Below are positions 16,129 to 64,000 of a DNA stretch of 64,000 bases, piece after piece (position 1 is the first letter of the stretch; the number at the start of each line of letters is the position of its first letter). Origin of the DNA: Lacisediminihabitans changchengi (GTDB taxonomy: Bacteria; Actinomycetota; Actinomycetes; Actinomycetales; Microbacteriaceae); the NCBI RefSeq assembly GCF_016634425.1, contig NZ_JAEPES010000006.1, forward strand, positions 1 through 64,000. Direction: 5' to 3'. A program made the translations under genes and the position numbers. The notes beneath the pieces were generated by a model. That model ran no database searches. It was not told the DNA's origin and saw only the letters and a program-made list of their open reading frames with translations.

Positions 16129-17123
16129 CCACCCTCGTCCAGATCGAACACGCGCTCGCCGCGTTCACCGGACTCGCGATCGGCGACGCTCTCGGCATGC
16201 CGACCCAATCGATGTCGCGACGGGAGATCGTCGAGGACTATGGCGACATCCGTGGTTTCGTTTCCGCGGGGCCACGCCAGCGGATCGCCGCCGGCATGGC
16301 GGCCGGCTCGATCACCGACGACACCGAGCAGGCGATCCTGCTCGGTGAGCTCCTGGTCGACGGCGCAGGCGTCATCGATGTCACCGTGTTCGCCGAGCGC
16401 CTGATGAGCTGGGAGGCGAAAATGGCCGCCCGCGGCTCCCTCGACCTCCTCGGTCCCTCCACCAAAGCCGCCCTCGAGCGCCTCGCCGGCGGATCGTCGC
16501 CCGCCGAGTCGGGCAGATTCGGTTCGACCAACGGCGCCGCCATGCGCATCACGCCGGTCGGCATCGCGTTCGACGCGTCGAACCTGAGCGCTTTCGTCGA
16601 CGCGGTCGCCGCCACCAGTGAAGTCACCCACAACACCTCGCTCGGCATCGCCAGCGCGGCCGCCATCGGCGCGGCCGTGAGCGCGGGCGTCGGTGGAGCC
16701 AGCGTGCACGAAGCGATCGAGGTCGCCATCGCGGCCGCCGACGAGGGCGCGACCCGCGGCTTCTGGGTGGCCGGCGGCACGATCGCGGCGCGTCTGCGCT
16801 GGGCGATCCCGTACCTCAACGAGACCGCGGCCTCGAAGCGGTCGGATGTCCTCACCGACGTGATCGGAACATCCGTGGCATCGCAAGAATCCGTCGTCGC
16901 GGCCCTCGCCCTCGTCGCCGTGGCGGAGAGCCCCTGGGATGCGGTCTGCCTCGCGGCCGGACTCGGTGGCGACACCGACACCGTCGCGGCGATGGCCGGC
17001 GCTGTCCTCGGGTCGGTAAGCGGGGCATCTGCCTGGCCGGCCGATGCGGTCGAGCAGGTCGCCGCCGTCAACGATCTCGATCTCGCCCCGCTGGTCGATC
17101 GCCTGCTCGCGCTGCGCGACTGA
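16125..17123 (+). CDS. ADP-ribosylglycohydrolase family protein
   Basis: A 332-aa all-helical hydrolase with the two dimetal-binding segments: GLAIGDALGMP near residue 17 with ITDDTEQA near 63, and GGDTDTVAAMAGAVLGS near 284. Family enzymes cut N-glycosidic bonds to ribose, classically from ADP-ribosyl-arginine. Between a permease for nucleobase-like compounds and a ribokinase-like kinase, it more likely acts here as a nucleosidase on an imported N-glycoside; that is inference. The start overlaps the GntR stop by four bases. Confidence 0.88.
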   Translation: MTTLVQIEHALAAFTGLAIGDALGMPTQSMSRREIVEDYGDIRGFVSAGPRQRIAAGMAAGSITDDTEQAILLGELLVDGAGVIDVTVFAERLMSWEAKMAARGSLDLLGPSTKAALERLAGGSSPAESGRFGSTNGAAMRITPVGIAFDASNLSAFVDAVAATSEVTHNTSLGIASAAAIGAAVSAGVGGASVHEAIEVAIAAADEGATRGFWVAGGTIAARLRWAIPYLNETAASKRSDVLTDVIGTSVASQESVVAALALVAVAESPWDAVCLAAGLGGDTDTVAAMAGAVLGSVSGASAWPADAVEQVAAVNDLDLAPLVDRLLALRD

Positions 17124-18657: not shown

Positions 18658-19585
18658 TTCGCGGCTCATCTTCACCGGCAACGTGATCGTCGACCTGGTC
18701 ATGGCGATTGATCGCGTGCCCGAACCCGGCGGCGACACCATCGCCTCGTCGAGCACCCTCACGGCGGGCGGCGGCTATAACGTGATCGTCGCAACACAGC
18801 GCGATGGTGTGCCGGTGGTCTTCGCCGGCCAATACGGCACCGGACCGTTCGGGGATGTCGTGCGCACCGCCCTGCGCGACAGCGGCGTCGAGGTGGTGCA
18901 GCCCGGTCTCGACTCGATGGACAGCGGCTACTGCGTGGCCCTCGTCGACGCGACCACCGAGCGCACGTTCGTCACCGCGGTCGGAGCTGAGGGGCAGCTC
19001 GATCGCGAGCACCTCGACCGGGTCGCCGTCTCGGCCGACGACATCGTCTACGTCTCGGGCTACAGCCTCGCGCATCCGGTCAACGGAGCCGCGTTGCCCG
19101 GGTGGCTGGAAGAATTGCCGGCCGAGGCCCGGGTGATGCTCGACCCGTCACCGCTGATCGCGGAGCTCGACCCGCAGCTCTTCACTCGTGTGCTCGCCCG
19201 CACCGACATCCTCTCGCTCAACGCCCGCGAGGCCGCGTTGGCGACGGGAACCGATGACCCGGCCGAGTCGCTGCGTCTGCTCGCGTCGAGCATCCGTCGC
19301 GGCGGCCTGGTCATGGTCCGCACCGGAGGTGACGGATGCTGGTTGCTGGGCAGCGGCGTCACCGAACCCACCCGAGTGCCCGGTTTCGTCGTCGAGGCTG
19401 TAGACACCAACGGTGCGGGAGACGCCCACAGCGGTGTCTTCGTGGCAGCTCTTGCCCGAGGCGAGGAGCCGCTCGCGGCCGCGAGTCGCGCAAACGCCGC
19501 TGCGGCGCTCGCGGTGCAGAAGCACGGCCCGGCGACCGCCCCGACTTCCGCCGAGATCGACGCGTTCCTGGAGTCGCGCGGATAG
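18650..19585 (+). CDS. PfkB-family sugar/nucleoside kinase
   Basis: A 311-aa ribokinase-fold kinase. The early TGNVIVDLVM and TAGGGYNVIVA segments bind the sugar, and VDTNGAGDAHSGVF near residue 253 carries the catalytic aspartate and anion hole. The usual GG(N/P)AxN is GGGYNV here. It presumably phosphorylates the sugar or nucleoside released by the operon. The start overlaps the permease gene by eight bases. It is separate from the psuK-like kinase at 51.9 kb. Confidence 0.88.
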   Translation: MSDSRLIFTGNVIVDLVMAIDRVPEPGGDTIASSSTLTAGGGYNVIVATQRDGVPVVFAGQYGTGPFGDVVRTALRDSGVEVVQPGLDSMDSGYCVALVDATTERTFVTAVGAEGQLDREHLDRVAVSADDIVYVSGYSLAHPVNGAALPGWLEELPAEARVMLDPSPLIAELDPQLFTRVLARTDILSLNAREAALATGTDDPAESLRLLASSIRRGGLVMVRTGGDGCWLLGSGVTEPTRVPGFVVEAVDTNGAGDAHSGVFVAALARGEEPLAAASRANAAAALAVQKHGPATAPTSAEIDAFLESRG

Positions 19586-26535: not shown

Positions 26536-29079
26536 CTACAGTTCCACGGCTACAACCGTGTCAAACAACCCGACCCGCCGCAGCCCCTCGTGCGACTCGA
26601 TGCCGGTGTACGACAGGGAGGCATCCTCATACCGTCGGAAGGCGAATACGGCCTGGTTCATTTGTGAGGAGTTGAAGACACCGAGGGAGACGAGCATGTC
26701 GAAGTCTTCGACGGTAAGTCCCGTGACGGTCTTGAACAGTCCGGGCTCTAACTTGGTGATGACATCCTTGAGGGTGTTTTCGCGATAGTCAGTCAGGTAC
26801 ATGAATGCGGGGATGCGGGTCGCGAACTTGATTAGGTTCTGCTGGATCTGTTTCCGTTTGGACTTGTACTCCTTCTCTTCCTCGGAGAGCTGCTTCTTTT
26901 CTTTCGGAGTGAGTTCGTCGCCCTTGGTCTTCTTGATTTTCTTCACCGCCTCGGACTTGTTGATGACTGTCTCGAAGACGTCATTGCCGAGTGCGCGGAA
27001 ACCCTCGATGTTCATGACCGCGGCCATCGCTGCGTCCGACGCCATGATTTTCTTCAGCGTGACGTTGTCGACGTTGACTAGGATCGCCGACTCCCATTTG
27101 CGTGCGAGGAGGGTTCCCGTAGTGCCTGTCATGGCGTAGTCGAGGACGCCACCCGCATCGATCGACCGCATGTCGGCACCGTTGTAGGCAAGGATCGGCA
27201 GAAAGTTGACGAGGTCCTCAACGGCCTTCTCAGGGTTCGGCTCCTCGGGAGATAGTCCGACACCATAATCGACCACCTGTCGCAACGCCCTGGTTGGGGC
27301 AAAGTCGAAGACGAAGCAGACTGGCTTCAGCACCTCCTCGGCATTCGGATCATCGCCGTTCGGGTTCTTGATAGACCATGGCGACTGCACGCGGAATGCA
27401 GCCTGGAAGTAGGTTTCCGGCGACTTGAGATTGCGGAGCATCAGGATTGACGACCACTGCGCCACGGTTACCCCGGTCGTCAACTTTCCGCAGGATAGCG
27501 TGATCGTTTTCGTGTCTACCCCATTGCCGATCGCTTGTCGCACGGGCGGGAGCGCCTCAAGTCCAATACCAGCGCCGGGGCCAGCGACGTTGAGCACCCT
27601 GTACTGGCCCCAGTAGGGCACGTTCTGCTTCTCCCCGAGGATATTCACCATTGCGTGGCAGGCGGCGACGTTCGGCAAGAACCAAAACGAGTGCTGGAGG
27701 TATGGGAGCAGCCGCGCATCGGAGTACGGGAATGGCGGCCGCGTGCCGCCCTTTAGGGCATCGATCTGTGTGGGGAGATGCTGGCCGCGGATGATGTCGA
27801 GCCACTTCTGTACGTCATCTTTGTGCTTGAAGGAGGCGTTCGAGCCGACGCCGATCGCGGCGAAGAAAGTATTGAGGTCGAATTCATCGAACTCACCTGC
27901 GCTTGCGACTTTCACAAGTTCGTCCGGCATTTGATAGGTGAACAGCCGCATTTCGGGGAGCGCCCCATACGGGTTGAGCTTGTCTGGGTGCTGCCTCACA
28001 TATTTGGCCTTGGCCCGCTGCTCGTCGGTATAGGTCCAGTTGAAGATCTGCTCCTCGATAAACTCCCCGGTCGCTAGCGCCTTGAACGGCGTGCCGGAGA
28101 GGTAGAGGTAGGCGCGGGTCGTGATCGGCAGAAAATCATTCTCATCGCTGCCCAGTTCGTCGAGCTCCTCGTCGAACGTCTCCAGCGCCTCGCCATACTC
28201 TCCGGCGAGTTCTTTCTTCGCTTCCTTCTCGTCCTCGCCCTCGAAGAGCTCCTTGGCGCTATCGCGCCACGCGCCGAAGTGGTACTCGTCGAAGATGACG
28301 AGGTCCCAGCTGATTGCGTGAATCCACTCGTTCTTTGCCTTCATGAGCCCGGTCGCCTTGTCGCGACCGAGCAGGTCCTGAAACGAACCGAAGTAAACGA
28401 GCGGCTTCTTATTGTCTACGGTTTTCGGATCGATGCCGGAGGACTTGGAGACGTATTGCCAACCATCGAAATCCTTGTGCGAGAGCAGATCAGTCGCCCA
28501 GGCGTCTTCGACCGCTGGCTTGAAGGTTACGACGAGTACCCGTGTCGCACCGAGCGACTTCGCGAGCTGGTAGCTGGTGAAGGTTTTACCGAAGCGCATC
28601 TTCGCGTTCCAGAGGAAGCGCGGCACCCCGTGCATGTCCTCCTTCCAGATCGAGTGAAAGTAGTCGTGGGTCTTCTCCACCGCGCGCATTTGCTCCGGAC
28701 GCATCGGAAACGTCTCGTGGTGCGTGCCAGCGACAGCCTGCCCGGTGCGCAACTCGGTGATTGCCGTCCGTACATCGGCTACGGAGCATTCCATCCACTC
28801 CAGCGTCGGATTCGCGAAACCCTTTGCCTTCAGCCGTGCCCGCACGTCGAAGTCGCGAAGGAATACGCCATCCTCACGCAGAGCCGACTCATCGACCTCG
28901 ATCGTGTAGTTAGTGACCGCTGCGGTCTTCACCTGCTGTGCTACCCGTGTCTTCACCCCTTGCGTCGTCTGCCCGACCTTCAACCAGCCTTCGTGCTGAT
29001 CATCGTGGATTGCGTACGCATAAATACGGAGCTGCCCCTCGGGGCGCTCCGGCATCAACTCATTGAGAGACTTACTCAT
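26536..29079 (-). CDS. GIY-YIG nuclease / SF2 helicase fusion
   Basis: An 847-aa protein. Residues about 17-110 look like a T5orf172-type GIY-YIG nuclease (RIYAYAIHDD, then LKVGQTTQGVKTRV, with a late glutamate near LEWME). The SF2 helicase core follows: MRFGKTFTSY (motif I, about 161-170), VIFDEYHFGAW (motif II, Glu-Tyr-His variant, 265-268) and YLYLSGTPF (motif III). A Lys/Glu-rich segment lies near the C-terminus. It resembles restriction subunits that translocate and cut DNA. It overlaps the upstream methyltransferase by eight bases. Which DNA it attacks is inferred from its neighbours. Confidence 0.8.
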   Translation of the reverse strand: MSKSLNELMPERPEGQLRIYAYAIHDDQHEGWLKVGQTTQGVKTRVAQQVKTAAVTNYTIEVDESALREDGVFLRDFDVRARLKAKGFANPTLEWMECSVADVRTAITELRTGQAVAGTHHETFPMRPEQMRAVEKTHDYFHSIWKEDMHGVPRFLWNAKMRFGKTFTSYQLAKSLGATRVLVVTFKPAVEDAWATDLLSHKDFDGWQYVSKSSGIDPKTVDNKKPLVYFGSFQDLLGRDKATGLMKAKNEWIHAISWDLVIFDEYHFGAWRDSAKELFEGEDEKEAKKELAGEYGEALETFDEELDELGSDENDFLPITTRAYLYLSGTPFKALATGEFIEEQIFNWTYTDEQRAKAKYVRQHPDKLNPYGALPEMRLFTYQMPDELVKVASAGEFDEFDLNTFFAAIGVGSNASFKHKDDVQKWLDIIRGQHLPTQIDALKGGTRPPFPYSDARLLPYLQHSFWFLPNVAACHAMVNILGEKQNVPYWGQYRVLNVAGPGAGIGLEALPPVRQAIGNGVDTKTITLSCGKLTTGVTVAQWSSILMLRNLKSPETYFQAAFRVQSPWSIKNPNGDDPNAEEVLKPVCFVFDFAPTRALRQVVDYGVGLSPEEPNPEKAVEDLVNFLPILAYNGADMRSIDAGGVLDYAMTGTTGTLLARKWESAILVNVDNVTLKKIMASDAAMAAVMNIEGFRALGNDVFETVINKSEAVKKIKKTKGDELTPKEKKQLSEEEKEYKSKRKQIQQNLIKFATRIPAFMYLTDYRENTLKDVITKLEPGLFKTVTGLTVEDFDMLVSLGVFNSSQMNQAVFAFRRYEDASLSYTGIESHEGLRRVGLFDTVVAVEL

Positions 29080-54784: not shown

Positions 54785-55819
54785 ATGGCAGTCGAATTCG
54801 GCATCTTCAGCGTCGGTGATCTGACCTCCGACCCGCTCGGCACGGTCCGGCGTAGCGAGCACAACCGGCTGCGTGACATCACCCGGATCGCGAAGAAAGC
54901 GGAAGAGGTCGGCTTCGACGTCTTCGCGATTGGCGAGCATCACAACCCGCCGTTCGTTCCGTCATCGCCCACCACGATCCTCGGCTACATCGCCGCGCAG
55001 ACGTCGCGCATCACGCTCAGTACATCGACGACGCTGATTACCACCAACGACCCGGTGAAGATCGCCGAGGACTACGCCACCCTGCAACACCTCTCCGACG
55101 GCCGCGTCGACCTCATGCTCGGGCGCGGCAACACCGCCGAGGTCTATCCGTGGTTCGGCAAGGACCTGCGTGACGGCATCGCGCTCGCCGTGGAGAACTA
55201 CGCCCTATTGCACCGTCTCTGGCGCGAGGAAGGCATCGACTGGAGCGGTCGGTTCCGCACCCCGCTCACCAATTTCACTGCGGTGCCGCGGCCGTACCTC
55301 GACACTCCGCCGTTCGTCTGGCACGGCAGCATCCGTTCTCCCGAGATCGCCGAACAGGCAGCGTTCTACGGCGACGGCTTCTTCGCCAACAACCTCTTCA
55401 TGCACATGAGTCATTTCGAGCGGCTGGTGGGTTTCTACCGCGAGCGATTCGAGCACTATGGACACGGTTCAGCGGATGCCGCCATCGTCGGCGCGGGCGG
55501 CCAGGCTTTCGTGCGGGCCCGCTCGCAAGACGCGATCGAGGAGTACCGGCCATACTTCGCGAACACCTTCACCTATCAGGGGCAGGGAAACCTCGAAGAG
55601 GTGATGGCGAACACCTCTCTCACCGTGGGCAGCCCGCAGCAGGTCATCGACCGGTACCTGTCGATGAAGGAGTACTACGGCGAATACCAGCGGCAGCTGT
55701 TTCTGGTCGACGCCGGCGGGTTGCCGATCGAACTGGTGCTCGAGCAGCTGGAGTTGCTCGGCAGTGAGGTCATTCCGGTGCTGCGGCGCGAGTGGGAGAG
55801 CGCGCGTTCACTGAGTTGA
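54785..55819 (+). CDS. LLM-class flavin-dependent oxidoreductase
   Basis: A 344-aa luciferase-like TIM-barrel monooxygenase. EVGFDVFAIGEHHNPPFVPSSP near residue 37 and LSDGRVDLMLGRGNTAEVYPWFG near 105 are diagnostic for the group with F420- or FMN-dependent members. It uses reduced flavin, perhaps supplied by a reductase elsewhere. The divergent MarR gene suggests induction by an aromatic or toxic ligand. A terminator follows. Confidence 0.88.
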   Translation: MAVEFGIFSVGDLTSDPLGTVRRSEHNRLRDITRIAKKAEEVGFDVFAIGEHHNPPFVPSSPTTILGYIAAQTSRITLSTSTTLITTNDPVKIAEDYATLQHLSDGRVDLMLGRGNTAEVYPWFGKDLRDGIALAVENYALLHRLWREEGIDWSGRFRTPLTNFTAVPRPYLDTPPFVWHGSIRSPEIAEQAAFYGDGFFANNLFMHMSHFERLVGFYRERFEHYGHGSADAAIVGAGGQAFVRARSQDAIEEYRPYFANTFTYQGQGNLEEVMANTSLTVGSPQQVIDRYLSMKEYYGEYQRQLFLVDAGGLPIELVLEQLELLGSEVIPVLRREWESARSLS

Positions 55820-55858
55820 GCCACGCCTGATCGGACGAATGTCCCGTTAAACAGGATT

Positions 55859-55892
55859 GAGGGTCGGTCTCAGAGGCTTGAGACCGACCCTC
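55859..55892 (+). terminator. Terminator after LLM oxidoreductase gene
   Basis: GAGGGTCGGTCTCA pairs perfectly with TGAGACCGACCCTC across six bases, with TCCC following. It ends the oxidoreductase transcript and marks the left edge of the accessory region. Confidence 0.88.
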
Positions 55893-56308
55893 TCCCTTGC
55901 ACCAAGAGTGTCCTGCAATCACATTCCGCAGAAGCTGCCACAGCAAACAACTTCTGCTCTTGAACTCTATAACGGTGAGGTAACGGAGCGCTAGTTATCA
56001 AACTGTGATTTTTCACGGAATTGCATAAATTTATCGTTTGTGTCCTCTGCCACTAAACTTGTCGTCTCGCCGACCTTAGTTGCACAGAACGTGAGTCGAG
56101 GTCGAGGTCGAAGCCCCGCGCGGCACTCGTACGCTGGGCAGGAGCTCGCGAACATGGCGGCAAGTCGGCGACTGCCTTGCTCCACTTGGCTAGCCTGTGC
56201 GGTCGATGGCTGAGCCGGATGCAACGCCAGGGGCTGCCTGAGCCGGTGCGTGGGATCTTGTCTTTTGGCAACGAAGTTGCCACGAAGAGCGTCGTCACGG
56301 CCCTCAGT
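55893..56308. other. Non-coding stretch left of the cassette region
   Basis: No supported gene on either strand. The 56180-56230 part has short frames without motifs. It leads into a repeat copy at 56309. Confidence 0.5.
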
Positions 56309-56357
56309 GTGTGGAGTTGATCGATAGATGGCGGTGTTTTGTGATGGCTCCGTGTCG
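56309..56357 (-). repeat. Cassette repeat copy A (tail only, inverted)
   Basis: Read leftward, this 49-base stretch matches the tail of copy C (63292-63340) at 41 of 49 positions without gaps, in opposite orientation. It lies just after the stop codon of the serine recombinase gene. Confidence 0.65.
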
Positions 56358-56368
56358 CTGGGATTCTG

Positions 56369-56950
56369 TTAATCGGTGAGGGCTCGCGACCTTCTATAGA
56401 ACGTTGCTCGCGACATTCCGAGGTCCCGGGCGACTTGGGCAGCTGGGTCACCGCTATCGACCAGGCGGATGGCGCTACGGATCTGGCTGTCGGTGACGCG
56501 TTGCGGGCGTCCACCGAGATCCTTCCCAGCATCACGGCGCTTGCTAACAGAGTCGATGATTCGCTCGCGCTTGATATCGTGCTCCATCTGCGCGAGAGCG
56601 GCCATGATCGTGAAGAGCATCGATCCCATCGGCGTCGAGGTGTCCACATCGCCGCCGCCGAGGTTCAACACGCGAAGGCCGGCGCTGCGGTCGCGGAGCC
56701 CTTGGGCGAAATCGAGCATGTTCTGTGTCGACCGGCCGAGCCTGTCCAAAGTGGTGATGACGAGGGTGTCTCCCGCCTCGAGCGCGGTCAGGGCGCGATC
56801 GAATTGCGGGCGTGACGCACGAGCGCCGGAGACGCCCTGGTCGATGTAAAGATCATCGCGCCGAACGCCGGCGGCAAGCAGATCAGCTTCTTGCCGATCC
56901 GTCGATTGCGGGCGAGTCGATACGCGCGCGTAACCGATCAGTTTCGTCAC
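56369..56950 (-). CDS. Small serine recombinase (resolvase/invertase)
   Basis: A 193-aa recombinase of the resolvase/invertase type. GYARVSTRPQSTDRQ carries the nucleophile serine (about 11), with arginines following. VITTLDRLGRSTQNML and GSMLFTIMAALAQMEHDIKRERI form the core and E-helix. The C-terminal PAAQVARDLGMSRATFYRRS is the DNA-binding helix-turn-helix. Length fits Tn3-type resolvases and Pin-type invertases; large-integrase domains are missing. It starts at GTG 56948-56950, with a motif-rich site just upstream. It probably acts on the repeats found through 63.4 kb. Confidence 0.9.
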   Translation of the reverse strand: MTKLIGYARVSTRPQSTDRQEADLLAAGVRRDDLYIDQGVSGARASRPQFDRALTALEAGDTLVITTLDRLGRSTQNMLDFAQGLRDRSAGLRVLNLGGGDVDTSTPMGSMLFTIMAALAQMEHDIKRERIIDSVSKRRDAGKDLGGRPQRVTDSQIRSAIRLVDSGDPAAQVARDLGMSRATFYRRSRALTD

Positions 56951-56961
56951 AACGCTCCAGG

Positions 56962-57024
56962 TGTCTCGTAACTAGCAGTGAGTGCTGAAATTCAACCACA
57001 TGGTTACGACACATAGTTACGAGA
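56962..57024. repeat. Recombinase-proximal recombination-site-like repeats
   Basis: TGTCTCGTAACT (56962-56973) is followed by GGTTACGACACA (57002-57013) and AGTTACGAGA (57015-57024), its inverted forms. Read leftward, the right half gives TCTCGTAACTATGTGTCGTAACCATG, the same paired pattern as the start of copies B and C. It lies immediately upstream of the recombinase gene, where a res or invertase site would be expected. Confidence 0.7.
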
Positions 57025-57082
57025 ATCGTGGACCTGCCGAATTGCGGCAATTTGACCCGATGATTTTTGCGTGCGGTGAGAC

Positions 57083-57112
57083 GTCTCGAAACCGTAGGGA
57101 TACGAGGCCTCC
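57083..57112. repeat. Additional motif pair before the AIPR gene
   Basis: GTCTCGAAACC and, inverted four bases later, GGATACGAGGCC form an imperfect dyad of the same motif family (TCTCRTAACC). It lies about 60 bases upstream of the AIPR start. Confidence 0.45.
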
Positions 57113-57171
57113 ACACATCCCGTGCATACGAGGTACCGATAGAGTCGAGATGAATTCACATCGGAGAAAAG

Positions 57172-58929
57172 ATGAAAACTGCTCTGGACGTTCTAGCTGG
57201 CCGAAAGGATCTTCAGGCGTATGGGGACAATTCGATAATCCTGTTCGCTCTTGAATTGGCCACGGGAGTGGAGGACATTGACTCCGTCGCTTCGTCAGCG
57301 CTGACCGACCACAGCAACGACAAGTCTTGTGACCTGCTTTGGGTGGATACGGCGTCCGGGCGGGCGGTTTTAGCGCAAGGCTATTTCTCGCAAAAGTATG
57401 ATCGGGCGCAGGCGCCCGCGAATAAAGCCGCTTCCCTTCATCAGGCCGTGGGGTGGATTCTGGGCCGAAACAAACAAGGAATTCCCGACCAATTACTATC
57501 CGCAGCTGAAGAGTTATGGACAGCTCTCGACGAGAACGAGGTCAACTCGCTCGAGATCTGGTACTGCCACAACTGCCCAGAATCGGCGAACGTCGGGGGC
57601 GAAATAAACTCGACGGTGAACACAGCCAAAGCTCTCTTGACCCAAAACTGGCCTTCGCTAGCCATAGATGTCTCTGGCAGAGAAATCGGGCAAACAAGAC
57701 TTCAGGAAATGTTCGAAGCAACGCAACTAGAAATTGCGGTCCAAGACGAAATTCGATTTTCGGTACCGGGCGGCTTTGAGGATTCAGGCGACGACTGGTC
57801 AGCCTTTTGCACCACTATTTCAGCCGAAGAGCTGAAGTCGATGTTCGCCGAGCATGGCAACCTCTTGTTTGCCCTCAATGTCCGGGACTACCTCAGCCTG
57901 ATCCGCAGCGACAAGAACATCAACCACAACATGCACCGAAGCATCGTGGACGAGCCAGGTCGGTTCTTCGCATACAACAACGGTCTGACGATCCTCACAT
58001 CGGACTGGGACTACAAACCGGGCAAGGCGGGCAAACCGGGCGCTTTATCCGTCCAGGGCGTAGCCGTCGTGAACGGTGCTCAGACCACCGGCGTCATCGG
58101 TAATTTGCAGGATAACGAAACGCACGGACTTTCGCAGGCAAGGGTGCTCACTCGATTTGTCAAAAGCTCTAATCGGGAGGTGCTCGAATCGATCATCAAG
58201 TACAACAACAGCCAGAACCAGATCGAACCTTCAGATTTTCGATCAAACGACGAGATCCAGGACCGCCTTCGTCGAGAGTTCGGCGCGATACCGGACGCCG
58301 ACTATCGAGGCGGCCGCCGCGGCGGCGAGACGGACATCATCGTCCGGCCTGCCAATCTGATTTCGACCAAGACCGCGGCGCAAGCGCTGTCCTGTTTTCA
58401 TGGGGAGCCGACTGCGGCTTATCACGAGATCGCGAAGATCTGGTCCAACAACGATTACTACATCCGCACATTCGATCCGTCTGTCACCGCTCGCCACGTT
58501 CTTTTCTGTCACTCGCTCATCAAAGCCATTGAGCAATACAAGCTGAACTTGAACGAGCAAGACCAGGCAACTGCCCAAGATAATTCGATCCTCGAATTCC
58601 TTCGTTTACGTGGAGCCGGCTTTATGCTCGCTGCGGCGATTGCCGCGAACATCGAGCAGATCTGCGGCTTTGCCGCTCCAAGCTCTTGGGGTATTCGGTT
58701 TAAGGAAAATATCTCCCCGAATGCCGCCCGAGATCTCTGGCTCGAAATTATTCCATCTCTAGCTCAGTTCAGCGGACCACTGAACGGCGCCGTAACCCCG
58801 AATTTCCGAAGTGCCATTCGTCGCGATACTGCCTTAGAAAGCTACAGGGGCGTCTTGAGCGCAATTCTCGCTATGCAGCCCACGGTCTATAGGTCGTTCG
58901 CTGATCGAGTCGAATACGTCGCCGTTTAA
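57172..58929 (+). CDS. AIPR-family abortive infection protein
   Basis: A 585-aa protein with the AIPR hallmarks: FALNVRDYLSLI (N236), INHNMHRSIVDEPGRFFAYNNGLTIL (Asn-Asn-Gly near 269-271), and VAVVNGAQTTGVI (N301-Gln304). The AIPR family was named from a phage-resistance gene; the mechanism is unclear. The first ~220 residues have no motif I can name, though a nuclease-like N-terminus is possible. GGAGA precedes ATG 57172. Codon use is visibly more AT-rich than the surrounding chromosome, which fits recent transfer. It is the single gene of its block. Confidence 0.85.
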   Translation: MKTALDVLAGRKDLQAYGDNSIILFALELATGVEDIDSVASSALTDHSNDKSCDLLWVDTASGRAVLAQGYFSQKYDRAQAPANKAASLHQAVGWILGRNKQGIPDQLLSAAEELWTALDENEVNSLEIWYCHNCPESANVGGEINSTVNTAKALLTQNWPSLAIDVSGREIGQTRLQEMFEATQLEIAVQDEIRFSVPGGFEDSGDDWSAFCTTISAEELKSMFAEHGNLLFALNVRDYLSLIRSDKNINHNMHRSIVDEPGRFFAYNNGLTILTSDWDYKPGKAGKPGALSVQGVAVVNGAQTTGVIGNLQDNETHGLSQARVLTRFVKSSNREVLESIIKYNNSQNQIEPSDFRSNDEIQDRLRREFGAIPDADYRGGRRGGETDIIVRPANLISTKTAAQALSCFHGEPTAAYHEIAKIWSNNDYYIRTFDPSVTARHVLFCHSLIKAIEQYKLNLNEQDQATAQDNSILEFLRLRGAGFMLAAAIAANIEQICGFAAPSSWGIRFKENISPNAARDLWLEIIPSLAQFSGPLNGAVTPNFRSAIRRDTALESYRGVLSAILAMQPTVYRSFADRVEYVAV

Positions 58930-58966
58930 ATTCCTCGGCCCCGTTATCGGTCACGCCGCGTTTCAG

Positions 58967-59079
58967 TGTCTCAAAACCTAAGCGTGCCGTGACCCATGGG
59001 CTGCACCAGGCCGCGCCGAGCTGTCCGCCGTCGACCTAGGCTGGACGAGACGCGGCGTATCTCTAGGAATACGAGACGA
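58967..59079 (+). repeat. Cassette repeat copy D (partial)
   Basis: TGTCTCAAAACC at 58967-58978, followed by a GTGCCG..ACCCATG stretch, aligns with the start of copy B. Its tail is not conserved. A further inverted motif, AATACGAGACG, lies near 59069-59079. The 58930-59233 gap holds no gene. Confidence 0.5.
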
Positions 59080-59233
59080 AAAAGTCTGTTGAAGTTATCC
59101 CCTAGTCACCGTTAATCGTCACCGTACGGGGTAAACGCGCATCTTTATGCCTGCGGGCATCCGACTCGAGTGGGCAGCCAGGAACGAGCGGTAGCCGACC
59201 GGCTAACGGGCGTGCGCGTGAAACACTGGATTT

Positions 59234-59746
59234 ATGATTTCGGGCCTGGACCTTCCCATCGCGTTGAAAACGTCGACGTCGATTCTCATGCTCCGACGCG
59301 CTCGTGTCGATGACCTTCCCGCATTGATGAAACTACTCGCCGACGATCCAGTCAGCGCTAGTCGTGGCGACCGATCTGACCCGGCTGATATGCCCGCCTA
59401 CGAAAGGGCGCTTGCTGAACTGATCGCGGACTCGTCCAACGAGATCCTGATGGTCGTAAGCGACACAGACGATCCAGTAGCGACCATGCAGCTCACGAAA
59501 ATTCCTAGGATGGCACGCCGCGGTTCCACACGGCTGCTCGTCGAAGCGGTGCGAGTCGCTAGTGAACATCGGTCGGGTGGGGTCGGCTCCGCAATGATGC
59601 GTTAGGTAGTTGAGTCGGCAGTTCAAGCTATTGGGGCGTCCCTCGTTCAGCTCACATCTGATGAAGCACGGGTTGATGCTCATCGCTTCTATGAGCGTCT
59701 GGGGTTCGTAGGATCCCACCGCGGATTCAAGTTTCGCGTCGAATAG
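59234..59746 (+). pseudogene. GNAT acetyltransferase with an in-frame stop
   Basis: The frame encodes a full ~170-residue GNAT protein: LRRARVDDLPALMKLLADD at the start, VATMQLTKIPRMARRGS, RLLVEAVRVASEHRSGGVGS for the acetyl-CoA loop, then AHRFYERLGF and a stop at 59744. A TAG at 59603-59605 interrupts it after SAMMR, where relatives often have tryptophan (TGG). One base change explains it. The result is a 123-aa truncated product unless the stop is read through. Confidence 0.8.
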
Positions 59747-59795
59747 GGTTACACCCCACGGCGCCCGCTGAGGGATCCCCTTCGTGCACCCCACG

Positions 59796-59904
59796 TGTCT
59801 CATAACCAGAGTGTGCCGAAACCCATGCGGTCCAAGACGGTTCTGCTCGGAGATACGACACAGAGCGATCACAGAACGCCGCCACCAAGCGATAAACTTC
59901 ACAA
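59796..59904 (+). repeat. Cassette repeat copy B (109 bp)
   Basis: This aligns with copy C (63232-63340) without gaps over 109 bases, about 91 identical by eye. It starts TGTCTCATAACC, has CGGAGATACGACAC in the middle (59849-59861), and ends in a GCCACCAAGC-containing tail. It separates the GNAT block from the sigma-factor block. The 59747-60070 gap has no gene. Confidence 0.75.
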
Positions 59905-60070
59905 CCCTAGGGATGCGAGAGGCCAGCAAAGCCCCGCACTGCGCTGGAGCTCGTGCGCATGAGGCCCGAACATCGGGCTTAGTTTCGGGACACCTAAACG
60001 GCGATCCGCGAACAGTGTCAACAAGGTTCCTGCGAATAGGAAAATGTGCCCGCTGGCCGTCCGGCTCGCC

Positions 60071-60826
60071 TTACGGGGACGGTGTGCCGATTTGGAAACG
60101 TCCGATTACGGTTGTGCCGTCTGATTCGTAGACGGGTATGGATCCGCTTCCTCGCAGCGCATCCATCTGTTTGAGGAGTACGAACCCGGTTTTGTGGTTG
60201 GTGGCAAGGGCGCCTATCAGGTCAGGGCAGCCGTTGACGTTGCACTGCCCGAAGCTTTGTCCTTTGGCATTTTTGCCCCAAGGGGTCGTCTTCGAATTGG
60301 CATACTGTCCGGTCACCTTCCATCGAGTGCCCGGATCTGCGGTGATCGTGATCGAGGTGTTCCCTCTATCGGGTAGCGATGCATCGTTCATATGCCACGG
60401 GTGCACGATGCCGTGGGAGTTCACGCGCCCCCCGTCTTTGCAATAGAACGTACCAAGATCACCAATGTCGCCCGGATTTTGTGGGAGTGACGATATGGAG
60501 ATTGATCCTTCCGAGTTGAGGCATTGGACGATGACGATGACGCGGGTCGCGCTGGCAGGTACAGGTCCCAGTTCGAGGGCACCGGTCCCTGTGTGCGTGG
60601 CGGAGTGGAGTCCGCCGAGAGGAGTCACGATCGTTGATCCGGGGAAGTAGTTGACGACGATCGCGGCGGCGGTCGATAGTCCCGCCGCGGCGATAAGGGC
60701 GAAGGTGACGGCCACTTGCCGAGCGCGGCGCTGATGGCGTTGGAGGCGGCTGTTCTTCGTACCGATCGCCAGAAGCTCGGCTCGCACAGCTTCAGCAACT
60801 GCAGGGTTCATTCCAACGGGTGTCAT
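60071..60826 (-). CDS. Membrane protein, putative anti-sigma partner
   Basis: A 251-aa single-pass protein. About 36 cytoplasmic residues (basic, RLQRHQRRARQ) precede one helix (38-60). The extracellular part has VIVIVQCLNSEGSISI and two Cys-containing segments (TFYCKDG and FGQCNVNGC). Its start overlaps the sigma factor stop by ATGA, the standard layout for an anti-sigma factor. I see no zinc anti-sigma HxxxCxxC motif, so the role is inferred from position. Confidence 0.65.
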   Translation of the reverse strand: MTPVGMNPAVAEAVRAELLAIGTKNSRLQRHQRRARQVAVTFALIAAAGLSTAAAIVVNYFPGSTIVTPLGGLHSATHTGTGALELGPVPASATRVIVIVQCLNSEGSISISSLPQNPGDIGDLGTFYCKDGGRVNSHGIVHPWHMNDASLPDRGNTSITITADPGTRWKVTGQYANSKTTPWGKNAKGQSFGQCNVNGCPDLIGALATNHKTGFVLLKQMDALRGSGSIPVYESDGTTVIGRFQIGTPSP

Positions 60827-61398
60827 GAAACACTCCCTTCCATGGCGGGACGCGTATCGGGCTTGAGGTCGCCAAGTTCTGCTCGAAGTCGGGCCCGAGC
60901 GCGATGGAGGCGGACGCGCGCTGTCCCCGGCTTCAGGCCGATCGTTTGGGCGGCGTTGGCGACCGAGAGACCTTCGAGGGCTGTAAGAACGAAAAGCGCG
61001 GCGTCGTCTGGCGCGAGCCGCCCGAGAGACGACGCAAGCCTCAGGCTCGCTTCCCCTTGCTCCGCGTTATGTGCCAGGACAGGCTCCGGGTGTGGAAGGG
61101 ACTGGAGTAGCCGTCGGTAGCGCGCGGTGCTCCGCCGGGCGTTTCGTGACAGGTTGACTGTGGCGACGAGGAGCCAGGGCCGGACTGAGCGGTCGACGAG
61201 GACCACGGTGCGGCGCTTGCGCCATAACTCGAAAAACGCTGCTGCGACAATTTCGTCGGCGTCATGCAAATTCCCCATGAGGGACAGTGCGTGCCCGTGG
61301 ATCCGATCCCGGTGGAGGTCGAAGATCTGCGCGAACGCCCACCCATCGTCTTGGCGCGCTCGTTGCCAGAGTTCCGCCTCGTTGTCTATCACACCCAT
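60823..61398 (-). CDS. ECF-type RNA polymerase sigma factor
   Basis: A 191-aa sigma-70 family protein. Region 2 is AFAQIFDLHRDRIHGHALSL followed by HDADEIVAAAFFELWRKR, and RPWLLVATVNLSRN closes it. Region 4 is LSVANAAQTIGLKPGTARVRLHRARARLR. It directs polymerase to a small regulon, probably in response to an envelope signal sensed by the adjacent membrane protein. Both genes form one two-gene block between repeat copies B and E. Confidence 0.88.
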   Translation of the reverse strand: MGVIDNEAELWQRARQDDGWAFAQIFDLHRDRIHGHALSLMGNLHDADEIVAAAFFELWRKRRTVVLVDRSVRPWLLVATVNLSRNARRSTARYRRLLQSLPHPEPVLAHNAEQGEASLRLASSLGRLAPDDAALFVLTALEGLSVANAAQTIGLKPGTARVRLHRARARLRAELGDLKPDTRPAMEGSVS

Positions 61399-61605
61399 GA
61401 ATGTCCGCTGTGGCCGTATCCGTTACATCAGGTTTCTTGAAGGGGCTGGTAGCGGCCAAATGGGCGACATGAAAGGCGCTTTGCGCCTCGACGCTCTCCT
61501 CAAGGCCTGACCGATCGACGCCGCCATCAGTGCGATCGTGACACCGCCTGTCATGCGACGCGGGTAAGCCACTGCGGCCCGCCGCGGTGAGTCTGATCCA
61601 CGCGT

Positions 61606-61645
61606 CAGAAACGATGGGATTCGAGACACTTACGTTACGAGATAT
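61606..61645 (-). repeat. Cassette repeat copy E (partial, inverted)
   Basis: Read leftward, TATCTCGTAACG and GTGTCTCGAATCCCAT follow each other about 16 bases apart, matching the paired motif start of copies B and C. It lies in the otherwise gene-free 61399-61706 stretch, between the sigma-factor block and the kinase block. Confidence 0.55.
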
Positions 61646-61706
61646 TTTGCTTGGGGCTTGCTGCGATTGAGTGCCCCTAAGACGATCCCGTTGGGTGCGG
61701 TGGCTT

Positions 61707-62255
61707 TCAGTCGGGGCGATCCTGCGTATCTAGCCACCGGGTGAGCGACACGAGATCGTGGGCAATCTCATTCACCGTCCGGCTGTCGGTGTTCACGCGA
61801 TGAACGGCGGGGCCGGCCTCGGTCGCGAGTTGCCGGGCAGCAGCAGAGCTTCGCTGCACATGTTCGTCTAGTGCTGAACCGATTTCCCGCCGTGTGAGAC
61901 GGGATCGCGCCGTCTCGTCGCTCGCCACTAGCAAGACACCCACCCCGCGGACCTTGCCACCGAGTGCCGCGACCAGTGGTCTCATTTGAAGGACGCTGAC
62001 TGTGTTCGTGTAGATGAGCCGTCGGTACCCGGCGTTGCGGTAGTTCTTCCACATCGCTGCCAGATTCTGTTCGGCCAGGTCCACGCCCTCGCGCCACGGC
62101 TCCGGGTACGCCTGATCGAGGTTGTCGCCCTCGATCAGCGCATGATGGACCGTGTTGGAGGCGAGTAGATGCGACACCTCAGCCGCGACAGTCGACTTCC
62201 CCACCCCCGCTCTCCCGCCAATGAACAGCACATCAGTTGGCAGGTCAGCATCCAC
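61707..62255 (-). CDS. P-loop nucleotide/nucleoside kinase-like ATPase
   Basis: A 182-aa protein with Walker A FIGGRAGVGKSTVA (about 11-24), EGDNLDQAYP after the second strand, and SDETARSRLTRREIGSALDEH, which looks like a lid with arginines. The size and layout fit small-molecule kinases (gluconate or shikimate type). No substrate is evident. GTG start at 62253-62255. Confidence 0.75.
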   Translation of the reverse strand: MDADLPTDVLFIGGRAGVGKSTVAAEVSHLLASNTVHHALIEGDNLDQAYPEPWREGVDLAEQNLAAMWKNYRNAGYRRLIYTNTVSVLQMRPLVAALGGKVRGVGVLLVASDETARSRLTRREIGSALDEHVQRSSAAARQLATEAGPAVHRVNTDSRTVNEIAHDLVSLTRWLDTQDRPD

Positions 62256-62429
62256 ACCTCAAGCGTGACACACGCTTCGATCCGTTTACGCAACGCCATC
62301 CACCCGAACCGGTTCCACGACGCGGCCGCCCGCTGAGAGGTCGATCCGCGGGCGCGCTCGGAACGATGCAAGTTCTGCTTCCGCGTCGCATCAGCGCGAG
62401 CGTCTCGAGCAACGTCCGGAAACCGTTCC

Positions 62430-63139
62430 CTAAACGGCGTTTTCGAGGGCGGCCCTGAGGTCGACAGTTGGTGCTGCATATCGTTCCACTAAGCCCGCCC
62501 GCATTCCCGCGGCTCGTGCGCCAGCAATATCGTGGCTGGGGTGATCGCCGACGAACACAACTTCACCTGTGGCCCTACCGAGGCCGCGAGCGAGGGTTTC
62601 AAACGCTCGCACGTCGGGTTTCTGAAAGCCAGGGTTTCAAACGCTCGCACGTCGGGTTTCTGAAAGCCGATGTCTTCCGAGATGCAGACCACATGGAAGG
62701 CATCCGCAAGACCGATCGCTGCGAGTTTCTTCAACTGTTGCTCTCGCGTTCCGTTAGTAAGAACACCTACGGCGACACCACCATCTCGCAGCTTCTTTAT
62801 CAGCTCTACGGCGTCGGGGAAGGCACGCCACCCCGATTCGTAGTCAGCAAAATATTGGTCAAAGATGCCGTCGAGGTCCCGAGTCGCAGGAGGGACGCTC
62901 ACGCCGATTGCGGGAAGAAACGTTCGCATTCTGGCTTGCCGTTGCTCCGCGAAGCTCAGGCGTCCGGCTCGCCACTCTTCGTAAAAGCGGTCCTCGATAT
63001 CGATCCAAAGCTCAATCGCGTTGGGTTCGGGTGCCGCACCCAACTGCCTCGTCAGCGCAGCCACCGCATCAGTCGCTGCACCCCGATGATCGAACAGGGT
63101 GCCATCCAGGTCAAAACCGACCGCCGCATAGTCACCCAC
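62430..63139 (-). pseudogene. HAD hydrolase disrupted by a 38-bp tandem duplication
   Basis: The 5' part (GTG 63139) encodes a HAD phosphatase: GFDLDGTLFDH (motif I), VGVLTNGTREQQLKKL (motif II), and DIGFQKPDVRAFETL (motif III). A 38-bp direct duplication at 62593-62668 shifts the frame, giving a junk tail. The rest continues in the other frame as GEVVFVGDHPSHDIAGA (motif IV) to a stop at 62430. Removing one copy restores one protein of about 220 aa. Confidence 0.85.
62593..62668 (+). repeat. Exact 38-bp tandem duplication
   Basis: Two adjacent copies (62593-62630 and 62631-62668) appear identical. Each begins AGGGTTTCAAACGCTC and ends TCTGAAAGCC. Since 38 is not a multiple of three, it breaks the HAD gene it lies in. 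Perfect identity implies a recent event. Confidence 0.9.
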
Positions 63140-63231
63140 CTGGCCAATTTATCGCGGGCAGCTCTGATCGCCACAGCAGGTTCCTCTTTCGGCGGCCGCG
63201 GCTCCATTCAGCTCGAATCGACACATTCCGA

Positions 63232-63340
63232 TGTCTCATAACCGAAATGCCTCGTAACCCATGCGATGCAAAACGGCTCTGCCCGGAGATACGACACGGA
63301 GCGATCACAGAACGCTGCCACCAAGCAATCAACTCCACAC
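63232..63340 (+). repeat. Cassette repeat copy C (109 bp)
   Basis: The second complete copy. It starts with two direct motifs, TGTCTCATAACC (63232-63243) and TGCCTCGTAACC (63248-63259), has GGAGATACGACACGGAG in the middle, and ends in ATCAACTCCACAC. It closes the last block before the LysR gene. The 63140-63461 gap contains only this repeat. Confidence 0.78.
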
Positions 63341-63461
63341 CTCAGTGAGCCCGTTGCTGCCGATCTCGGCAATGTGTCAGCGAACGCGTGCCCGTAAAGG
63401 GTCTTATTGTGTGGCGCGGGTGTGGTTCGCGACCATGCTCCGGGCGAATGATCCCGGCCGT

Positions 63462-64000
63462 TTAGTCCCCCGCTGAAAGCTGCGGCAGTGGATCCGGGTA
63501 AGAATTCCGGAGTGTGGTTTCTGAATCCACCGACCGCCGTGAGTCGATGGTCTCGCGATACGTACGGGTCAACTCGGAGGCGACGTCGTGGAGATGTGAC
63601 TCGAGCGTTAGCACTGCGGCGGGCGCCGTGTTGCTGTCAACTCGAGCCGTGTAGAGACGTCTCACGAGCCCGTCACCGGCCAACGGCCGAGCGACCGCGC
63701 CGGGAGGGGGAGCCTGAAAAGAGAGGCTAGGCGCCAGTGCGATTCCTAGCCCCGCGGAGACCATATTTAGCACCGTGCGAAAGTCCTGACCTTCAAAGTC
63801 GACGGTACGCGATGCATCGTTCGTCGCACCTGAGGTCAGTCCACCGACGTCGGCGCTCGTGTTAATCCATTCGTGTGCTTCGACATCGAGCGGGTCGATG
63901 GCTGCCTTGTCTGCCAACGCGTGCCCCGCGGGGAGAACGACGATGATCGGGTCGTCCATCAAGCGCTGCTGTCTCACCCCTCGCGGTGCCGCGACCGGCG
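63462..64000 (-). CDS. LysR-family regulator, C-terminal part
   Basis: About 179 residues of the substrate-binding half of a LysR-type regulator; the N-terminal helix-turn-helix lies beyond the window and the frame is open at the right edge. PIIVVLPAGHALADKAAIDP and the later TVLNMVSAGLGIALAPSL are classic LysR effector-domain motifs. The true start cannot be seen; an in-window GTG at 63977 is not the start. Confidence 0.85.
   Translation of the reverse strand, partial: PVAAPRGVRQQRLMDDPIIVVLPAGHALADKAAIDPLDVEAHEWINTSADVGGLTSGATNDASRTVDFEGQDFRTVLNMVSAGLGIALAPSLSFQAPPPGAVARPLAGDGLVRRLYTARVDSNTAPAAVLTLESHLHDVASELTRTYRETIDSRRSVDSETTLRNSYPDPLPQLSAGD

Follow-up and report, generated by a model that had tools for sequence, protein, structure and literature searches.

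What does a small serine recombinase do when it stands beside a series of similar, site-like sequences that separate unrelated genes? This question is raised by a 64-kb stretch of DNA from Lacisediminihabitans changchengi, called the window below and the reference of all window coordinates, in which a preliminary description made from the letters alone had noticed a 193-amino-acid (aa) resolvase-type recombinase, a repeat of 109 bp and successive blocks of one or two genes. We analysed the recombinase (REC), the element in which it lies (window 56310-63339) and their relatives in other genomes. Judged from the sequences compared, the element is very likely a non-autonomous Tn552-like transposon carrying an array of cassettes that its own small serine recombinase has assembled, and would be an analogue, in bacteria of soil and plants, of the integron. 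More generally, these loci probably represent a second, independently evolved integron-like platform, in which a small serine recombinase captures, stacks and trades cassettes through double-strand dyads within non-autonomous Tn552-like transposons. The sequences make it likely that this platform has its arrays on chromosomes across Micrococcales, with REC relatives also on plasmids. No serine-recombinase cassette array was described among the literature matches listed, a search with preprints and most subscription papers outside its scope. We borrow attI, attC, res and site I as terms of comparison.

The recombinase and its sites

REC is encoded at 56369..56950 on the minus strand. It has a resolvase domain (PF00239, E 8e-37) and a C-terminal helix-turn-helix (HTH_7, PF02796, E 6e-9), the two parts by which serine resolvases and invertases are recognised, and this agrees with the enzyme type first assigned. 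Its nearest solved structures are the DNA invertases 4m6f and 3uj3 (E about 1e-32), followed by Tn3 and gamma-delta resolvase, and no NCBIfam equivalog was found over its cut-off for REC. Among the 80 best of 166 loci, relatives with 77-96% identity are found in Frigoribacterium, Subtercola, Microbacterium, Arthrobacter, Pseudarthrobacter, Sinomonas and others; Agrococcus, Rathayibacter, Brevibacterium, Cryobacterium and Kocuria are further genera, and one metagenome-assembled genome named Propionibacteriaceae also contains a relative. The named genera belong to Micrococcales. Relatives with at least 70% identity are present on 26 plasmid records, and a search of 50,697 phage records found none at E 1e-40.

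A cluster of TCTCRTAACY-type motifs had been reported beside REC, and counts bear this out: TCTCRWAAC occurs seven times in the window, all within 56964-63242, against 1.04 expected, and none of 100 shuffles reached seven. Three exact window matches to GGRATNCGAGA lie in the same interval; with one mismatch, 11 matches were found against 12.05 expected, which is not above chance. Upstream regions of REC relatives show TCTCRTAAC or close variants in most of the 75 shown, a few (L099, L122) being without it. The site unit is a 24-bp dyad, TCTCGTAWCCC-TA/AT-GGGWTACGAGA; in the wider form TCTCGWAWCCC-NN-GGGWTWCGAGA it has no match in window 1-50000 and none in 20 shuffles (2-base blocks) of a 48-kb array region. 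Within 260 bp upstream of REC relatives of at least 75% identity, the dyad is found in 48 of 78 at a score of at least 17 and in 51 of 78 at a score of at least 14, compared with 25/3000 and 31/3000 random windows, respectively. Two loci on the same contigs as others (L201 and L205, with L051 and L074) were left out of the upstream-dyad, site, spacing and direction counts, and L131 and L141 additionally out of the site-spacing and cruder direction count only. With one exception, this upstream dyad, which we name site I, lies 147-189 bp before the REC match. Its positions group near -147, -158, -171, -182 and -188, at intervals close to a helical turn, and the phasing of the DNA between site I and accessory sites may therefore matter. 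In the window, site I (res site I, attI-like) is the TA-centred dyad at 57084..57107 (score 29.5), and word counts and upstream comparison mark the inverted TCTCGTAAC pair at 56964..57024 as putative accessory half-sites within the res region that precedes REC.

Sites of a second type are centred on AT and accompanied by a third half-site at a distance of 16 bp. Most of these AT-type sites lie some 66 bp inward of the far transposon end, and they also occur at block boundaries. The 43-base AT-type pattern gave 45 matches in 19 of 398 genomes of the family (a few sites being matched on both strands), and the reversed pattern gave none. Across the order it was found in 7 of 396 genomes, four of them in other families, and viral contigs showed no exact match.

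Arrays and exchange at the dyad

The site unit recurs in other Micrococcales in arrays of up to nine small blocks, whose cargo includes toxin-antitoxin, GNAT, sigma and transporter genes. Arrays were identified at G199, G149, L190, L195 and L072. G149 shows sites at 19182, 21262, 22078, 23179, 24240, 25497 and 26566 and, more weakly, at 27830; they share one direction and are followed by a res region at 28700. G199 has nine AT-type sites between 8311 and 16165 (six alike-directed, two symmetric and one undirected), which lead up to site I at 16931 and REC. An uninterrupted REC-type reading frame adjoins the arrays of L195 and of L072, from Pseudarthrobacter sp. PS3-L1 (71 and 86% identity, respectively). 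The arrangement typical of integrons, a tandem array of small cassettes adjoining a recombinase gene, is thus present at L195 and L072, and at G199 with a broken REC. The median spacing of neighbouring same-direction profile matches is 951 bp (n = 37), and where a third half-site on one side only gives the site a direction, 26 of 27 pairs of neighbours separated by under 3 kb share their orientation. Four AT dyads have half-sites on either side and are symmetric.

Cassettes contain mostly one or two genes, and some are larger (L072 5150-9813). The families found among 17 cassette proteins scanned include ParE, YoeB/YefM toxin-antitoxin, three GNATs, GrpB, a CAAX protease, an AFG1 ATPase, LysE, a sigma factor and an MFS protein, and two of the proteins had no family match. 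The YoeB cassette was searched in 396 genomes and the gene pair found in 48; this gave no evidence for cassette transfer, because the listed matches span the genes and not the site. Two Clavibacter phaseoli plasmids have the same gene order over their shared stretch, where no strain-level turnover was seen. A 1.56-kb stretch beside an AT-type site is present twice in genome G279 with 95% identity (L190 16367-17922 and L191 9398-7847).

Comparison of 101 loci with one another placed 116 alignment ends within 12 bp of dyad centres (4.6 per bp), whereas five other bins had 0.3-0.5 per bp. The dyad is also where alignments of REC modules stop. Homology breaks in or at the dyad in ten pairs of loci, chosen by eye. 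Agreement left and right of the break is 22/86 and 61/62 between G343 and L199, 82/86 and 17/62 between L121 and L113, 23/86 and 55/62 between L121 and L105, and 78/86 and 33/62 between L066 and L142. At an orthologous locus in three species of one genus (G077, G343 and G278), both flanks are syntenic at about 87-93%, on the left of G278 by one 850-bp match, and the islands between them differ; homology of G343 and G278 resumes within site I. Furthermore, G077 and G278 share one 94%-identical cassette that is inverted, has sites at both ends and stands between different neighbours. In the stretch compared between G149 and G245, 5 kb on the res side are common at 87%, the similarity stops at the dyad, and the cassettes beyond differ. 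Gene order is therefore not fixed in relatives at the loci compared; for the window locus itself, no relative sharing its position was found.

The most precise junction was found in Arthrobacter sp. AK04 (L067), where two genes, by eye those of a sigma factor and its partner, make up a block of 1,443 bp that is present twice in tandem and identical over 1,447 bp. Both edges of the duplication fall at CTAG in the middle of a dyad. The first dyad is TCTTGAATCTC-TA-GTGTTTCGAGG, the middle one TCGCACAACCC-TA-GTGTTTCGAGG and the third TCGCACAACCC-TA-GGGATTCGAGG; the middle dyad is an exact hybrid, with its left half from the third and its right half from the first. Such a hybrid is predicted by site-specific recombination between the two outer dyads, but not by homologous recombination over four shared bases, and we read the duplication with its hybrid dyad as the fingerprint of site-specific recombination. 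It is the only tandem cassette duplication in the loci scanned, and it may be an assembly error. At the level of sequence, the hybrid dyad within CTAG and the breaks in the ten chosen pairs may reflect a crossover at the 2-bp centre of the dyad. Arrays elsewhere, dyad breaks, differing blocks at one locus and the hybrid site support the serine-recombinase cassette array, integron-like in logic, that had been proposed for the window, with REC as the presumed catalyst.

According to the mechanism that we propose, REC would bind 11-bp half-sites (TCTCGTAWCCC), two of which in a dyad would form the crossover site, with TA, AT or TT as the 2-bp centre. Neighbouring half-sites would act as accessory sites, like those of resolvase res regions, and site I upstream of REC would take the role of attI. 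A cassette would consist of mostly one or two genes and a site (AT-type dyad with its third half-site), with an extra TA-type dyad 58-84 bp away at some boundaries. Recombination between two dyads would excise a block as a circle, and the excised block would insert beside another dyad; blocks may also be duplicated or, sometimes, inverted. The package would be mobilised in trans by a DDE transposase of Tn552-like elements that share its ends.

The window element and its transposon ends

The two gap-free copies of the 109-bp repeat described for the window (59796-59904 and 63232-63340) have 84% identity, and a 49-bp copy at 56309-56357 is inverted. The repeat is a composite of a transposon end of about 48 bp in its outer part and a REC-type site in its inner part. 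The preliminary description had not recognised half of the repeat as a transposon end. The partial copies that it listed are pieces of different kinds: 56309 belongs to the other end of the element, 57083 to the dyad of res site I, and 58967 and 61606 to degenerate sites. The repeat has no further copy in the host genome, where a search gave 12 matches: two are strong (E 3e-62 and 7e-28), and the remaining 10 have E values of at least 0.11. With the site type tied to the REC family (48/78), the repeat is not a genome-wide sequence without link to the recombinase.

The element has inverted ends of 48 bp, REC just inside one of them, and four blocks as cargo. Its end on the recombinase side (56310..56357, minus strand; profile and repeat comparison) and its far end (63292..63339, plus strand; end profile) adjoin exact 8-bp copies of CCTCAGTG at 56302..56309 and 63340..63347. 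Because this duplicated flank abuts the TGTG...CACA ends, 56310-63339 is read as a single mobile element that moved as a unit. The array is packaged in a transposon with an 8-bp target duplication, which the preliminary description had missed. An internal end (59856..59903, plus strand; end profile) forms the second half of one copy of the repeat.

A profile built on the outer 44-48 bp of the window element was used on loci of REC relatives in other genomes, and the same ends were found flanking these relatives. Flank duplications of 8-10 bp abutting TGTG...CACA, sought in 20 listed end pairings with all combinations and non-partners included, were found for eight elements (seven exact and one with one mismatch): the window element, L055, L056 (the one with a mismatch), L067, L081, L090 (with a CACG variant at one tip), L101 and a 17.2-kb element at L131. 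L131 has the same ends and encodes a transposase with rve and Mu-transpos_C domains, a 271-aa AAA ATPase and a serine recombinase only 32% identical to REC. No rve/Mu-type transposase or AAA ATPase was found among the open reading frames (ORFs) of window 56310-63339 by Pfam scan. A transposase of the L131 type was not seen among the predicted genes shown for L055, L056, L067, L081, L090 and, as far as its genes are listed, L101, and L067 has, by eye, an apparent IS21-type pair. The host genome of the window contains only relatives with 29% identity. Since no transposase of their own was seen, L131 with the same ends has one and the relatives in the host are this distant, the REC elements are presumably non-autonomous and mobilised in trans.

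The L131 transposase is 41% identical over 99% to a DDE protein of a Staphylococcus plasmid (LC784001), which we take to be Tn552-like, and about 27% identical to a TniA. The 17.2-kb element (L131 2411-19601) has a 9-bp target duplication and two more transposon ends back to back (13026/13064); we regard it as a composite of two Tn552-like elements with cargo. Tn552 has three genes, for a rve/Mu-type transposase, an AAA ATPase and a serine resolvase, and a target duplication of 6-7 bp. The likeness to this family lies in the L131 gene set, carried on elements with the ends of the window element, and in the terminal inverted repeats and target duplications of REC elements. The window element differs by the absence of transposase and ATPase, and REC elements by target duplications of 8-10 bp against 6-7 bp. 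At several loci of Kocuria and Citricoccus (L104, L106, L111, L115 and L117) and in Pseudarthrobacter (L064), the REC res region is directly adjoined on its upstream side by a transposon end, weak in some cases, as if the elements hunted each other's res sites.

The blocks named beforehand are all present in the window, the anti-sigma gene by position only. Block 1 encodes an AIPR-family protein (57172..58929, plus strand; PF10592, E 7.5e-32). The boundary that follows (58969..59076) was recognised from the sequence and combines a degenerate AT-type site at 58969-59008 with a TA-type site at 59053-59076, with weak matches to the hidden Markov model at 58965-59000 and 59056. Block 2 encodes a GNAT acetyltransferase (59234..59605, plus strand; ORF list and Pfam) whose frame is interrupted by an in-frame TAG and then continues to 59746 (59603-59746), as in a decayed cassette gene. 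Downstream, an AT-type site (59798..59837, minus strand, three mismatches to the pattern) is the first half of the 109-bp repeat, and a TA-type dyad (59897..59920, score 23.1) overlaps the outer tip of the internal end. Block 3 contains an ECF sigma factor gene (60823..61398, minus strand; Pfam) and, beside it, a gene for a putative anti-sigma factor (60071..60826, minus strand), for which no Pfam family was found over cut-off. A weak match marks a degenerate AT-type site in the opposite orientation (61603..61643, plus strand). Block 4 encodes a P-loop kinase-like protein (61707..62255, minus strand; PF13671) and a HAD hydrolase (62489..63139, minus strand; Pfam), in whose gene self-comparison showed a 38-bp tandem duplication at 62589-62664 with copies 97% identical. 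The last AT-type site (63234..63273, minus strand, two mismatches) lies at the far end of the element. The array looks old and partly decayed because of its degenerate sites, the in-frame stop of the GNAT gene and the duplication in the HAD gene.

About 170 nt immediately to the left of the element (55838-56016) are 85-96% conserved in most genomes of the same genus searched, where they are located elsewhere, apart from the luciferase-like gene. No Rfam match was found in window 55800-64000. Contigs C1 and C3 of genome G000 gave recombinase and transposase matches of equal scores; with 11.6% contamination, this assembly may contain redundant sequence.

Alternative explanations and known systems

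The loci could be ordinary resolvase transposons in which REC only resolves cointegrates and the sites are scars of nested insertions into res sites. The transposon ends and target duplications are genuine, the internal end lies against the TA dyad at 59897-59920, the Kocuria and Citricoccus loci have an end (partly weak) abutting the REC res region, and res-site hunters are known (PMC7765201). However, a transposon end could not be detected 55-110 bp outside 117 of the 137 site-profile matches (a set with some TA dyads and some sites called on both strands), the long arrays G199, G149 and L195 likewise gave none, and nested insertion would give no hybrid dyad at a perfect 1,443-bp duplication. 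In addition, the window element, G245 and L067 each carry multiple sites, and not the single res site of cointegrate resolvases. We consider this account unlikely, and a plain transposon reading, true as to ends and target duplication, was set aside with the arrays that have no ends left unexplained. It is very unlikely that the loci form a multi-site inversion system of the Hin/Gin type, in which REC would flip blocks for phase variation. The solved structures nearest to REC are those of DNA invertases, the four symmetric AT dyads with half-sites on both sides are expected of inversion products, and site 61603 is inverted; against this, directed sites are mostly direct repeats (26 of 27 neighbours), and the blocks are unrelated genes whose content differs between species at one locus.

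Shuffling of the blocks by homologous recombination between regulatory or repetitive motifs would draw on repeats of 24-110 bp, which are present, and on extended homology at some boundaries (L072 5150 vs 9813). We rate it as highly improbable given that the sites differ within arrays, the edges of the L067 duplication share just CTAG, homology breaks in or at the dyad in the ten chosen pairs and directed neighbours stand at 26:1. Scarcely credible, finally, is a true integron remnant that has lost IntI, with the resolvase as a bystander. The cassette size (median spacing 951 bp) is integron-like, and toxin-antitoxin and acetyltransferase genes resemble the content of integron cassettes (PMC8618304). 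IntI (TIGR02249) was not found over cut-off in 10 of 10 genomes, that of the window included, a search without positive control because 14 control genomes also gave none, and this limit takes some weight from the case for REC. None of the weak TIGR02249 matches listed is located at an array, and no IntI-type domain was found among nine window proteins scanned. Furthermore, the sites are dyads matching the REC res region, at which the alignments of REC modules end.

Several observations count against cassette arrays built by REC. The 116 alignment ends near the dyad come from alignments that are not independent, and ends are also frequent 13-30 bp outside (2.7 per bp), 31-60 bp inside (2.0) and 61-100 bp inside (4.4), positions that may correspond to half-sites and accessory sites. 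Only 48 of the 78 REC relatives could be assigned a site I, and 3 of 24 distant recombinases have an upstream dyad as well. A transposon end lies within 200 bp downstream of REC in only 18 of 85 cases. REC is missing from G149, and in the cleanest array, G199, it is broken by frame changes into three pieces. Gene direction within cassettes is mixed (G149 and G199 among the arrays read), and a cruder count that also gave symmetric dyads a direction found no bias (37 same, 31 opposite). In the window itself, the strict dyad score is passed only by 57084 and 59897, both with a TA centre, and the sites at 58969, 59798, 61603 and 63234 are AT-type or degenerate. Dyad centres vary (TA, AT and TT), therefore some site pairs should be incompatible. 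No empty site could be shown because the right flank of the window had no match in 39 other genomes (40 searched including the host). Catalysis by REC, excised circles, transposition in trans and expression are steps that we infer.

Integrons are the textbook route by which single genes are stockpiled and traded, using a tyrosine recombinase and folded single-strand sites. If cassette capture by REC is true, the same strategy evolved more than once, here with a serine recombinase; this would explain gene turnover in Actinomycetota and might provide a gene-stacking tool made of a 193-aa enzyme and short sites. The site can be searched for, which opens a route to unknown cassette genes, with toxin-antitoxin and possible defence genes among them. 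If REC both integrates and excises, it would also be informative on what determines the direction in which small serine recombinases act.

The array works like an integron, yet it is not a member of this class, since integrons are defined by a tyrosine recombinase (PMC8618304). The array and integrons, both sedentary chromosomal and class 1, have in common a recombinase gene adjoining an array of small same-direction cassettes, mostly with one or two ORFs each, toxin-antitoxin and acetyltransferase cassettes, arrays that lost the recombinase, and a carrier transposon whose movement would be in trans. They differ in the enzyme, the tyrosine recombinase IntI there and a small serine recombinase here, and in the sites, attC there and here dyads of 24 bp whose 2-bp centre is shared with the REC res site; gene direction is also less uniform here. 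Class 1 integrons ride on res-site hunters of the Tn402 type, which are often defective and moved in trans (PMC7765201). The packaging proposed here would be a close parallel to this arrangement: Tn402/Tn5053 elements with class 1 integrons are also a gene-capture platform on a transposon with rve, AAA and resolvase genes (PMC7765201). They differ in that the L131 transposase is only distantly related to TniA (about 27% identity) and that here the capture enzyme itself is of the resolvase type.

In the pdif modules of Acinetobacter, too, genes are flanked by short recombination sites (PMC12907356). These modules differ in using the host-encoded tyrosine recombinases XerCD. SCC elements with Ccr and multi-site serine invertases share with the present loci a serine recombinase and multiple sites. 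Sites of pdif modules alternate in inverted orientation, and no dedicated recombinase is known at pdif arrays. Ccr are large serine recombinases that act on whole islands, and multi-site invertases flip segments. REC differs from both as a 193-aa enzyme linked to direct-repeat arrays of small units.

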